A stretch of DNA of 30,037 nt from a virus. The notes below the pieces were generated by a model. It searched no databases and was not told the origin of the DNA. It was given only the letters and a program-made list of their open reading frames with translations. The stretch is from positions 1 through 30,037 of the IMG/VR virus record IMGVR_UViG_3300032896_000442, one strand, 5' to 3'. A program made the translations under genes and the position numbers. Below, piece by piece: positions 24,956 through 28,291 of this stretch. The number at the start of each line of letters is the position of its first letter. Positions within the stretch are counted from its first letter, which is position 1.

Positions 24956-25062
24956 TCAGCCACGTCCGCGTTCACCTTCGCCAGAACCTCGGCCTCGATC
25001 CCGATCCCGCTGAATTTCCAGACCCAGCTCGACCTCGTCCGAAGTTGTATCGCGTGAAATAG
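24871..25062 (+). CDS. Doubtful small protein antisense to the repressor end
   Basis: A 63-residue frame beginning MENQDDRRKRELEALWRLED with a plausible amphipathic helix and a Pro-rich end. It overlaps the 3' end of the repressor gene on the other strand, whose own C-terminus is low complexity there. No good binding site precedes it (AAGGAT only three bases off). It could be a real small protein, an antisense regulator transcript, or chance. Confidence 0.25.
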   Translation: MENQDDRRKRELEALWRLEDLGPDVAPIVSHVRVHLRQNLGLDPDPAEFPDPARPRPKLYRVK

Positions 25063-25402
25063 CCTCGGCCTGACCATGGCGCTCGAAGTGGATGCGCTCA
25101 CGGATCGGCGCGGCTTCCATCCGTGCCTGCCGAAGCTGGAACTCCTCGTCGCCCAAGTATTTCTCCCCGGCCTCGCGTAAGGGTTCGTCGGTTAGTGCCG
25201 CCTCCCATCCCCACCGGATGAACCATCTCGGGACGCCGCACATTTCGGCAATCACCGGTAGCTCTAGCCGACCTACTTCCCGCTTCCCGAGTTCGATCGC
25301 CCGGATCGTGTCGCCGCTCCGGTCAATCGCTCTGCCGAGTTCCTCCCTGGACAGACCCGCGAAGGTCCTCGATGCCCTGATCCGTTGTGGAATGCCATTC
25401 AT
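24956..25402 (-). CDS. HTH-type (XRE) repressor, CI-like
   Basis: A 148-residue protein with start at ATG 25402; the frame is open up to 25492 but that would overlap the operators and the divergent gene. Residues 5-58 are a helix-turn-helix of the Cro/CI (XRE) type: RIRASRTFAGLSREELGRAI, DRSGDTIRAIELGKREVG, ending VIAEMCGVPRWFI. The C-terminus is charged and low complexity; no peptidase domain (S24) or dimer domain is visible, so RecA-driven self-cleavage is not expected. Divergent from the Cro-like gene across 81 bases, in the place of a phage immunity repressor. Confidence 0.75.
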   Translation of the reverse strand: MNGIPQRIRASRTFAGLSREELGRAIDRSGDTIRAIELGKREVGRLELPVIAEMCGVPRWFIRWGWEAALTDEPLREAGEKYLGDEEFQLRQARMEAAPIRERIHFERHGQAEAISRDTTSDEVELGLEIQRDRDRGRGSGEGERGRG

Positions 25403-25483
25403 CGGGGAAAACCTATTGGGAAATCGCGGGAGGTTTTCGGGGAATTTCTCCATGTTTCGGGAGAATCTGCTACGTTTCGGGGA
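25403..25483. promoter_or_regulatory. Operator region with 20-bp-spaced TTTCGGG repeats
   Basis: Between the divergent repressor and Cro-like genes, TTTCGGGGAA occurs at 25435-25444 and 25475-25484, and the variant TTTCGGGAGAA at 25455-25465: three copies exactly 20 bp apart, about two turns of DNA. A related TCGGGGAAAA lies at 25402-25411, and inverted CGAAAC at 25493-25498 just inside the right gene. Regular same-face spacing suggests cooperative binding of the repressor and/or Cro-like protein and control of both promoters. The downstream gene starts right in the last copy, so its mRNA may be leaderless or start nearby. Confidence 0.65.
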
Positions 25484-25768
25484 ATGAACCAACGAAACGG
25501 GAGTCGAAAGCGTTTGCCGAATGGCGAACCCTGCGAGACGAATCGCGAGTTCTTCACGCTGATGGTCAAGAAAGGGATGTCGCCGCGAGCCCTAGCCCGC
25601 AAGTCGGGGGTCTCGCACAAGACGATTGAACTCGTCATCGACGGTTGGATACCCTCGGCCCGCGTCCAAGGGGCCCTGGCAACTCAGCTCGGAGTTGATC
25701 CCGACGAACTGTGGTCAATCGAAGCCCAGCTACGGATACGCGCCGCGAAGAAACGGGCCCGAACATGA
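25484..25768 (+). CDS. Cro-like HTH protein
   Basis: A 94-residue protein. Residues 22-78 are an XRE-type helix-turn-helix (FTLMVKKGMSPRALARKSGV, SHKTIELVIDGWIPSARVQG, ALATQLGVDPDELW). It is the first gene of the rightward early operon, opposite to the repressor, and is the likely Cro counterpart. ATG 25484 has no separate binding site because the operator repeat TTTCGGGGAA abuts it, so translation may be leaderless; Met 27 is a possible alternative start. Stop overlaps the next gene as ATGA. Confidence 0.72.
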   Translation: MNQRNGSRKRLPNGEPCETNREFFTLMVKKGMSPRALARKSGVSHKTIELVIDGWIPSARVQGALATQLGVDPDELWSIEAQLRIRAAKKRART

Positions 25769-25986
25769 GCGGCGCAGCTCCAGTGGATTTCGTTGGTCTG
25801 CGTCGCGACCAGGGTAAGACCTTGAAAGAGAAGGCCGAGGAGATCGGCGTTACCGTCGCCGCCCTACAGCGCGCTGAGAAGGGCACTGTCCCGACCCCCG
25901 GCAACGCGAAAGCGATTGCCGAACATTATGGGTTCACCGTCTCCCAAGCGTGGCCGCTCGAAGAGGCGAAGGCTGGCGTCGAATGA
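25765..25986 (+). CDS. Second small HTH (XRE) protein
   Basis: A 73-residue protein beginning at the ATG of an ATGA overlap. VDFVGLRRDQGKTLKEKAEE, IGVTVAALQRAEKGTVPTPG and NAKAIAEHYGFTVSQAWPLE show a helix-turn-helix of XRE type over almost its full length. It may be an early regulator, anti-repressor partner, or replication-linked DNA binder. Confidence 0.72.
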   Translation: MSGAAPVDFVGLRRDQGKTLKEKAEEIGVTVAALQRAEKGTVPTPGNAKAIAEHYGFTVSQAWPLEEAKAGVE

Positions 25987-26198: not shown

Positions 26199-26479
26199 AG
26201 TCTGCGGACATCACAGTCGATTTCGCGAAGGCCCTGCGCCGCGCCCACAAGCGTCAGCAGGAGACCCTCGGTCCGCTCTTCGAGGCGTTTGAGGAAGCCA
26301 CCGATCCCGTCGCCCGGTATGACATCGCGAAGGACATCCTAGAAACGAGCAATGAAGCGGCGGTCACGTTCAACCAGGACGTCCGCCGAGCTACCGACAT
26401 CGCGGACACCCGGCGGAAGACCACGCCTGGGGATCTCGAAGCTGCTCTACGCGAAAGGGTGGCGGGTGGCCCGACTTGA
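26195..26479 (+). CDS. Hypothetical helical early protein
   Basis: A 94-residue, mostly helical, charged protein (FAKALRRAHKRQQETLGPLF, EEATDPVARYDIAKDILETS, DVRRATDIADTRRK). It starts and ends with ATGA/TTGA overlaps. No family recognised. Confidence 0.65.
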   Translation: MKSADITVDFAKALRRAHKRQQETLGPLFEAFEEATDPVARYDIAKDILETSNEAAVTFNQDVRRATDIADTRRKTTPGDLEAALRERVAGGPT

Positions 26480-26868
26480 GTCTCGAACCAGCCGATCAGC
26501 TTCCCGCATTCCTGCTCTACGCGAAGGACTGGCTCAACTCCGAGTCGGTCTCGACCATGACCTACGAAGAGAAGGGCGTGTATATCGACCTGCTCTGTAT
26601 CGCTTGGACGAAGGTCGGTTTACCGAAGGACGAGGCGAAGATTGCCCGGCTTCTCGGGCTCACCCGCCCGGCTTTCAGGAAAATCTGGCGGACGATCGGC
26701 GAGCATTGGGAACCCTCCGGCGAGCGCCTCTTCAACCCTCGCATGGAGGAGGTCCGCAAGAAGGCGAATGCCAACGAGAGGGTCAAGGAGATCCGGCGGA
26801 TCCAAGCCAAGGAAGCCGCAGACAAGCGGTGGGCGGCGGAGCGCGCCAGGAACGCGGAGGCTGCGTGA
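26476..26868 (+). CDS. DUF1376-like (YdaU-type) replication-module protein
   Basis: A 130-residue protein with TTG start in a TTGA overlap. The first 85 residues (LPAFLLYAKDWLNSESVSTM then EEKGVYIDLLCIAWTKVGLP and KIARLLGLTRPAFRKIW) match the DUF1376/YdaU pattern: 'Dwl.....ms.eerG.Yi.LL..aW..gglP.d...iarll'. The C-terminus is a Lys/Arg/Glu helix (RRIQAKEAADKRWAAERAR). The family is usual just upstream of phage origins and replication genes and may bind DNA through a winged-helix-like fold. It is directly followed by the putative origin. Confidence 0.8.
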   Translation: MSLEPADQLPAFLLYAKDWLNSESVSTMTYEEKGVYIDLLCIAWTKVGLPKDEAKIARLLGLTRPAFRKIWRTIGEHWEPSGERLFNPRMEEVRKKANANERVKEIRRIQAKEAADKRWAAERARNAEAA

Positions 26869-26873
26869 GTTCG

Positions 26874-26970
26874 ATGCGACCGCATATGCGTCAGCAATGC
26901 GACCGCATATGCGCGGGCATATGCGTCGGCATATGCGACCCCCCCGCTTTCGGGATGCGACCGCATATGC
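26874..26970. repeat. Iteron-like array of GCATATGC
   Basis: The palindrome GCATATGC occurs at 26882, 26905, 26917, 26929 and 26963 (first bases). Three of them are extended to ATGCGACCGCATATGC (26874-26889, 26897-26912, 26955-26970). The second, third and fourth copies are spaced exactly 12 bp. Such clusters of short repeats bind initiator or origin proteins in phages and plasmids. It is not a CRISPR array: units and spacers are far too short. Confidence 0.75.
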
Positions 26971-26997
26971 AAAACCTTAAACCTCCAATCTACGAAG

Positions 26998-27046
26998 TGG
27001 TTAACCAACCTTGTGGTGAAAAAAGGAGCCTCGTTGGTCGACCAAC
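26998..27046. repeat. Two palindromes TGGTTAACCA and GTTGGTCGACCAAC
   Basis: TGGTTAACCA at 26998-27007 and GTTGGTCGACCAAC at 27033-27046 are both perfect palindromes and share the outer TGGT...ACCA. Their centres are 37 bp apart. They lie next to the iterons and may bind a dimeric regulator or a replication protein, possibly one of the HTH proteins of this operon. Confidence 0.5.
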
Positions 27047-27184
27047 CACCTTGGAGTTGTCGATTACCGGCGCGGGCGCGTGTGCGCGAGGCCGAAAGGG
27101 TCGCCGGTGGATTGCCGGATAGAACAATTCCTGACCCGGTATCCAACTCGCGAGTCCTTGCCCCCGGCTCACCGGGAGGCGAAT

Positions 27185-27538
27185 GTGACTCGCGACCAGA
27201 TCCAGCGAGCAGCCGAAACCGTCCTCAGCGACAAGCTCCCGCTCCGCGATGGTCTCGTGTTGCGTCAGGCTCTCGCAATCGCCGAGTTCGACGCTTCCGG
27301 AATCACAGCCGTCTGGAAGGAAGTCCACCATCAGCTCGAAGCGAGCCTGCCCGAGGCGACCTACCGGATGTGGCTCGCTCCAGTTCACGTCGCCGCAGTC
27401 CGGGGCGGAACGATCCACCTCGCCTGCGCCGACTCCATCAGGACTTGGGTCGAGCGTCGGTATCGCCCGATGATTCTGCGGGCGCTCAAGCAGGCAGCAC
27501 CGGAGTTCATCGAAATCACATTCGAGGAGGTCACCTGA
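27185..27538 (+). CDS. DnaA domain I-like protein (replication initiator helper)
   Basis: A 117-residue protein. Residues 43-114 match the N-terminal (domain I) of DnaA: VWKEVHHQLEASLPEATYRM followed by WLAPVHVA and GGTIHLACADSIRTWVERRY with a final strand FIEITFEEV, parallel to the W...L...LP...W..P...L...W....Y pattern of DnaA. DnaA domain I binds the DnaB helicase and itself. No AAA+ ATPase or DNA-binding domain IV is present, so it is far shorter than DnaA (about 450 residues). GTG 27185 is chosen for GGGAGG with a 5-base gap; GTG 27107 (AAAGGG ahead) is a possible longer start. Next to the origin, it may load or divert the host helicase. Confidence 0.82.
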   Translation: MTRDQIQRAAETVLSDKLPLRDGLVLRQALAIAEFDASGITAVWKEVHHQLEASLPEATYRMWLAPVHVAAVRGGTIHLACADSIRTWVERRYRPMILRALKQAAPEFIEITFEEVT

Positions 27539-27539
27539 G

Positions 27540-27746
27540 ATGGGCCAACCAAAGGAACAGGTCGAGCGTCGCGTGACCATCACGTTCAAGTCCACACAGG
27601 TCATCACCGTCATGGCCCAGAACGCTGCCGAAGCGAAACGAGCGTCCAGGGACCCCCGCAACTGGAAAACGATCGGCCTACCGAAGCGCGACGACGTTTC
27701 AATCCGAGCGGCCGCCGGCATCAAGGGCAACGGTGACCCGTCGTGA
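27540..27746 (+). CDS. Hypothetical small beta-rich protein
   Basis: A 68-residue protein with GAGGAGG ahead at 27523-27529. The first 25 residues are beta-like (RRVTITFKSTQVITVMAQ) and are followed by NAAEAKRASRDPRNWK, the usual layout of short phage proteins with a 'v.a.s..eA...A' motif. No function assigned. The stop overlaps the next GTG start (GTGA). Confidence 0.65.
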   Translation: MGQPKEQVERRVTITFKSTQVITVMAQNAAEAKRASRDPRNWKTIGLPKRDDVSIRAAAGIKGNGDPS

Positions 27747-28291
27747 GCCTCACGATCGAACAGGCCCGCGCCGATGGCTTCGATGATCTCGACGCCGCAA
27801 TCAGGGCACAGGAGACAACCAAGCCGTTCTGGACCAAGCGAATCCGAGAAACGATCCACGAGATCCTGATCCGCAAGGGCACTTTCTCTGCCAATGACCT
27901 CGCGTCGATCGAGATCCCCGCGATCCACTCTGGCCTGATCCCCGGCCAGGTGCGTGGCGTGGCCACGAAGGGACTGATGCGAAAGATCGGACACACAACC
28001 TCGACCATCCCCACCAGGCATGGCGCTGAGATCAGGACCTACGAAATCACCGACCTGGGGCGCGAACGCCTCGCCGGGGTCGGGGCTGGAATGGACTCTC
28101 CTCCAGGGGCCAGCTCCGATCCGGGCGAGGAAGCGTCCGACATCGCCGCCGATTCCAAGACCGGCAGCGAGGTGGGGTCAGAACCGAGCTCGGAGGAAGC
28201 CCCCAACTCCCTGGCCTCCTCCGAGCCGGTCCCGCTCTTCGACCTGGGCCAACCTGGCAGATTCACCGATCCTGATCAGAGGAACGACTGA
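27743..28291 (+). CDS. Winged-helix-like early protein with acidic tail
   Basis: A 182-residue protein with GTG start in a GTGA overlap. Residues 28-110 look like a winged-helix domain: FWTKRIRETIHEILIRKGTF, SANDLASIEIPA, RGVATKGLMRKIG, and a strand HGAEIRTYEITDLGRERL. The last 70 residues are low-complexity Ser/Glu/Pro/Gly. DNA or protein binding in the replication module is likely; details unknown. Confidence 0.65.
   Translation: MSLTIEQARADGFDDLDAAIRAQETTKPFWTKRIRETIHEILIRKGTFSANDLASIEIPAIHSGLIPGQVRGVATKGLMRKIGHTTSTIPTRHGAEIRTYEITDLGRERLAGVGAGMDSPPGASSDPGEEASDIAADSKTGSEVGSEPSSEEAPNSLASSEPVPLFDLGQPGRFTDPDQRND

Follow-up and report, generated by a model that had tools for sequence, protein, structure and literature searches.

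A putative iteron-type replication origin beside a DUF1376 gene in a phage genome

Introduction

Where on its genome does a phage begin to replicate, and which of its proteins recognizes the place? We address this question for a viral sequence in IMG/VR, 30,037 bases long (IMGVR_UViG_3300032896_000442; the whole stretch is called here the window). The locus in question is a 316-base-pair (bp) gap between a gene for a protein of the DUF1376 family and a gene for a protein resembling domain I of DnaA, and it contains an array of short repeats beside A/T-rich DNA. A preliminary description read it as an iteron-type origin, and the comparisons presented here lend that reading strong support: the gap is very probably a phage replication origin, at which the DUF1376 protein would serve as initiator by binding iterons of the form GCA-n-TGC.

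Initiator genes that contain their own origin are already known, and the mechanism that we propose is an ordinary one. In phage lambda, iterons and an A/T-rich tract lie in the middle of gene O (PMC7466680); in the RepA_N plasmid pSK41, the Rep boxes occupy a central position in rep, and the linker of the protein is encoded by the origin (PMC5703833). What would be new is the assignment of DUF1376 to the origin-containing initiators, a correspondence between a protein motif and the iteron, and the split layout of the window. Among the papers naming DUF1376 in the open literature that was searched (subscription journals were not covered), none ties the family to a replication origin.

Results

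The iteron array and its setting

The repeat GCATATGC occurs five times in the 30,037 bases, with 0.15 copies expected, and all five copies are in the gap; none of 100 shuffles reached five. Three copies have ATGCGACC ahead of them (at 26874, 26897, and 26955), and the spacing of the middle three is 12 bp. The preliminary description had given the five positions, the three preceded copies, and this spacing correctly; it missed a sixth, degenerate site, GCAATGC. The six GCA-n-TGC sites follow one another at 12, 11, 12, 12, and 34 bp, that is, at about one and three helical turns. The 56-base A/T-enriched segment that it had pointed out proved to be both the lowest in G+C and the least stable of the window: the lowest-G+C intervals of 40 and 56 bp (35% and 39%, vs. 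a mean of 63.5%) and, by nearest-neighbour energies, the weakest intervals of 40, 56, and 80 bp in the entire 30 kb all start at 26965–26971, abutting the last iteron. The two TGGTnnACCA palindromes that it placed after the repeats (26998 and 27035) are the only occurrences in the window, and a DnaA box (TTWTNCACA) is found nowhere in it.

The G+C content by codon position is flat in the gap (0.58/0.60/0.58, vs. 0.60/0.45/0.81 in the DUF1376 gene) and unlike that of both flanking genes, and the gap is therefore probably non-coding; the array falls within it because the DUF1376 coding sequence stops before the first iteron. Phased short sites, an adjoining A/T-rich segment of low stability and a candidate initiator gene beside the array, three marks of an iteron-type origin, are present here.

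Association of the array with DUF1376

IMG/VR was scanned for three clustered copies of GCATATGC, blind to proteins, which gave 91 stretches. A DUF1376 profile, built from eight members of the family identified through their annotation or by protein similarity, detected an open reading frame (ORF) of this family at the array in 31 of them, representing 17 lineages at 70% identity; the contigs of IMG/VR are redundant, and lineage counts are more trustworthy than locus counts. The arrays are found where the DUF1376 domain ends or close by, mostly within about 110 bases after it, and their commonest spacing is 12 bp, as in the window. With a control palindrome, GCTATAGC, none of 31 stretches had an adjacent DUF1376 gene (one has such an ORF at the far end of the contig), and the difference in association is significant (Fisher p 2.7e-5). 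An iterated profile drifted into Lin1244/Lin1753-like proteins away from the array, so that matches to the strict profile alone were counted. A second iteron, CGTTCAAC, was predicted from named DUF1376 phages; with the same criterion of three clustered copies it gave at least 120 stretches, and among the matches listed, 73 of 120 have DUF1376, with the arrays just after the domain and mostly at 11-bp steps.

In all 31 relatives with GCATATGC the array is encoded inside the DUF1376 gene, unlike the array of the window. Across lineages the core is translated as I-C, A-Y-A, or H-M, and some genes use two or three frames. An array that is read in three frames, and left unread in the window, shows selection on the DNA and not on the peptide; it is the iteron DNA that is conserved. 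The preliminary description had regarded translation of the segment with codon-level conservation, or lack of conservation of the repeats or spacing in relatives, as fatal to an origin. The array is indeed translated in relatives, yet the frame differs among them, with all three in use, and the segment in the window is without a codon-position signature; repeats and spacing are kept beside DUF1376.

Some GCATATGC arrays were recorded in other settings. Six AT-rich contigs (L113, L139, L147, L161, L175, and L191) have arrays at 12/33-bp spacing and also a Lin1244/Lin1753-like ORF that matches the drifted profile; in several of them it lies 1.1–1.5 kb downstream of the array, and it may be a related initiator whose origin lies apart from its gene. 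Ten contigs of high G+C, about 0.7 (L118, L126, L128, L138, L143, L152, L167, L172, L179, and L184), carry triplets at 24/33-bp spacing and no DUF1376. In a further six of about 0.64 G+C (L107, L124, L154, L157, L178, and L194) the spacing is 25/13 bp, and in several of these the repeats stand beside a conserved short ORF that has no Pfam match.

The converse survey started from proteins, namely the named DUF1376 phages together with 98 viral loci for which protein similarity was the sole criterion; alignments of diverse DUF1376 proteins were too divergent for scanning the collection, and a pair and a trio of sequences were used. The tails past the domain contain at least four copies of a 9-mer in 8 of 23 cases (the window and 22 relatives), compared with 5% of other segments, a count that discriminates weakly for single tails. 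Helical phasing does so better: by a criterion picked on the named phages and applied to the independent set, phased triplets occur in 6 of 12 dereplicated tails but in no more than 1% of the remaining segments, though two of the six positives (L270 and L280) are 6-bp coding repeats, without which the figure is 4 of 12. Phages of Proteobacteria, cyanobacteria, Pelagibacter, and further groups have members of the family, and its gene neighbors in the named phages are genes for a helicase, a helicase loader, or a DnaA-like protein, among them DnaB, DnaC, and P.

Correspondence between protein motif and iteron

The DUF1376 domain ends in more than one way. Where it ends with A-x-x-S/A-A-x-x-R-W (class A), the tails hold on average 2.42 GCA-n-TGC cores and 0.08 of the other core; where it ends with A-G-K-x-S-A-x-x-R (class B), they hold 2.11 GTT-n-AAC cores and 0.17 of the other, the background level being 0.17–0.19. 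Over a larger set, the iteron core was as predicted from the end motif for 60 of 61 representatives; the window protein, with its six GCA-n-TGC sites, belongs to class A. The suggestion in the preliminary description that the DUF1376 protein may bind the iteron is its best-supported part.

A class C end motif, NGxKGGR (L237, L240, L241, L242, and L244), is followed by tails with neither iteron type; some of these have TAAAGCTAA-like repeats.

The two flanking proteins

The preliminary description identified both flanking genes correctly. The upstream protein matches PF07120, DUF1376, at 8.5e-10 (39.3 bits, vs. a gathering score of 30.1), and its matches in PHROG are families of "primosomal protein" (3e-8). 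Its AlphaFold model (pLDDT, the predicted local distance difference test score, 91.9) consists of a winged helix and then a long C-terminal helix. In a second-look structural ranking the N-terminal domains of staphylococcal RepA_N proteins came out on top, with the winged helices of DnaD and of the origin recognition complex close behind. A Pfam scan at E 0.1 returned DUF1376 only, with neither RepA_N (PF06970) nor a phage O family among its matches. Solved structures searched by sequence with DUF1376 gave chance matches only.

The downstream protein matches PF11638, DnaA_N, at 6.6e-10 and the DnaA domain I structure 4tps, chain B, at E 4e-4; GGGAGG at 27174–27179 precedes the GTG start of its gene. 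It aligns to the first 72 positions of TIGR00362 only, and a Pfam scan of it found no other DnaA domain, neither AAA+ nor the DnaA-box-binding domain IV. Because the AAA+ and DNA-binding domains are absent, this protein would be at most accessory, and the view of the DnaA domain I gene as the initiator is weaker. In Escherichia coli the helicase-contact residues of DnaA domain I are E21 and F46; here they are replaced by T and S, respectively. Searches of IMG/VR (with peptide patterns), phage records, and the other retrieved loci found no relative of the protein. Helicase recruitment is thought to be the main role of DnaA domain I (PMC10201431), and a division of labor with DUF1376 is therefore plausible, on the basis of gene adjacency and fold family.

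Genomic context

The window contains phage genes for a portal, a protease, a capsid, a tail tube, an endolysin-like protein, and an integrase. The nearest matches of its terminase are mostly from actinobacteriophages, which makes an actinobacterial host likely; the window is probably a temperate phage of an actinobacterium. The DUF1376 gene, the gap and the DnaA domain I-like gene belong to an operon on the + strand, downstream of divergent helix-turn-helix (HTH) regulator genes (Table 1). In those records of terminase-based close relatives that were searched, there was no DUF1376 match. An Rfam search gave no match. ARAGORN calls a tRNA-Pro (ggg) at 28163–28236 on the − strand, inside a 182-amino-acid ORF (27743–28291) upstream of the integrase gene; the call may be spurious, or the sequence may belong to an attachment site.

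Table 1. Coordinates of the candidate origin and of neighboring features in the window
Feature	Position	Strand	Remarks
HTH genes	24956–25492, 25385–25768, 25765–25986		
DUF1376 protein, 130 amino acids	26476–26868	+	Proposed iteron-binding initiator; ends with KEAADKRW (class A)
Origin candidate segment	26869–27184		316 bp
Iteron 1, GCATATGC	26882–26889	+	
Degenerate iteron, GCAATGC	26894–26900	+	Same core as in other class A DUF1376 genes
Iteron 2, GCATATGC	26905–26912	+	
Iteron 3, GCATATGC	26917–26924	+	
Iteron 4, GCATATGC	26929–26936	+	
Iteron 5, GCATATGC	26963–26970	+	Borders the A/T-rich segment
A/T-rich segment	26971–27026		Least stable 56 bp of the window; putative unwinding element
Palindrome, TGGTTAACCA	26998–27007		Within the A/T-rich segment
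Palindrome, TGGTCGACCA	27035–27044		Just after the A/T-rich segment
DnaA domain I-like protein, stand-alone, 117 amino acids	27185–27538	+	PF11638; possible helicase recruiter

Discussion

From the computed array, phasing, melting segment, gene associations, motif-iteron correspondence, and fold, we infer the following course of events. The DUF1376 protein, made from the gene directly upstream, would bind the helically phased GCA-n-TGC iterons; the resulting complex would strain and open the adjoining A/T-rich segment; and the host's replicative helicase would then be recruited, plausibly with the aid of the DnaA domain I protein. In most relatives these iterons fall within the DUF1376 gene itself, in the linker that joins the DNA-binding domain to a variable C-terminal part. 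A wider proposal, to which we give somewhat less than even credence, is that DUF1376 may constitute a large and so far unstudied class of phage initiators with an intragenic origin, in which the short C-terminal motif AxxSAxxRW or AGKxSAxxR specifies the palindromic iteron GCA-n-TGC or GTT-n-AAC, respectively; in the window this arrangement would have been split, a minimal DUF1376 protein binding the DNA and a borrowed DnaA domain I recruiting the helicase in trans, at an origin free of DnaA boxes.

Each of the known systems resembles the proposed one in part. Like the lambda O gene, DUF1376 genes would carry their own origin, and the C-terminus of YdaU, the DUF1376 protein of the E. coli Rac prophage, shows similarity to replication proteins of the lambda O type. 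In contrast to lambda, the DNA-binding domain is DUF1376 and not the O N-terminal family, the candidate origin of the window lies in non-coding DNA, and DnaA domain I, which may be the partner, is encoded by a gene of its own. The RepA_N initiators (pSK41, pTZ2162) have an N-terminal winged-helix domain that binds Rep boxes central in their own gene; the window protein has no RepA_N sequence match, and the match in fold is modest. In Rac, ydaU is followed by a gene for a putative ATP-binding protein, YdaV, and TGTTCAAACA-type repeats stand just after its DUF1376 domain (L022, 500–600). The prophage has an active origin, oriJ (PMC3945230), for which these repeats are a candidate location; unlike those of the window, the Rac iterons are intragenic and of the GTT-n-AAC type, and there is no DnaA domain I protein. 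The genes gp31–gp33 of Sinorhizobium phage phiLM21 encode DnaB, a DUF1376 protein with three TTCAACGGACG repeats, and a DnaA-like protein, which looks like the DNA-binding domain IV, unlike the domain I of the window.

Several observations weigh against an origin of this kind. No DUF1376 was found by the strict profile in 60 of the 91 GCATATGC stretches, and GCATATGC must therefore serve other roles as well. The split layout of the window, with the array in a gap and DnaA domain I encoded on its own, was found in no relative. The structural match to RepA_N is modest (Z 7.4, with a root-mean-square deviation of 5.3 over 88 residues), and a Z of about 7 at such a deviation is within the range for the common winged-helix arrangement; Foldseek against the PDB found no match to the model at E 1e-3. 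The cumulative GC skew shows no switch and is uninformative, so that of the skew and melting profiles proposed as checks in the preliminary description only the latter, with the least stable DNA right after the last iteron, spoke for an origin. Finally, shared ancestry explains part of the correspondence between motif and iteron: the tree needs eight changes of iteron class, but supported branches provide no more than three informative independent pairs, of which all agree with the correspondence and none disagrees (p 0.25). Motif and iterons are neighbors in the DNA, and joint exchange by recombination is therefore possible.

Other explanations of the array have to be set against these points. 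It could be an operator, at which an HTH regulator acts on the downstream operon of the DnaA domain I gene and controls its transcription rather than replication; HTH genes are indeed present in the window, some DUF1376-free GCATATGC arrays adjoin HTH_3, HTH_19, or CI-type repressor genes, and the TGGTnnACCA palindromes resemble operators. The nearest HTH gene, however, is about 900 bp away, and DUF1376 is the immediate neighbor of the array, an arrangement shared with 31 further stretches; moreover, the weakest duplex of the window abuts it, and no sigma-70-like promoter was seen at 26400–27600, in a scan of the kind that covers one promoter type only. We consider an operator unlikely.

It is less likely still that the repeats are the decayed or frameshifted 3' end of a longer ancestral DUF1376 gene and no longer an origin. 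Such a history would fit the intragenic array of all 31 relatives and the end of the window's ORF at 26868, just before the array, in a frame that stays open far beyond the stop, but DNA sites would not survive coding decay, and here the iteron cores are perfect and still phased, the melting segment has stayed intact, and the codon-position G+C is flat. Least credible of all, and very improbable indeed, is that the GCATATGC arrays of DUF1376 tails are by-products of repeat-rich protein linkers. These tails are often of low complexity (e.g., NKNKN or DTDTDT), yet one and the same DNA core is translated in three frames in relatives and not at all in the window, the core changes along with the protein motif, and the repeat enrichment holds against other segments of the same loci.

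An iteron-type origin served by a DUF1376 initiator is thus the reading that we favor. It would give DUF1376 a concrete proposed function and each genome that has such a gene a predicted origin location, including a candidate place, inside ydaU, for the long-known origin of the Rac prophage. The two-class correspondence between motif and iteron can be tested by simple binding assays. The split layout of the window, which would separate origin binding from helicase recruitment, may be useful for asking what a phage initiator minimally needs.
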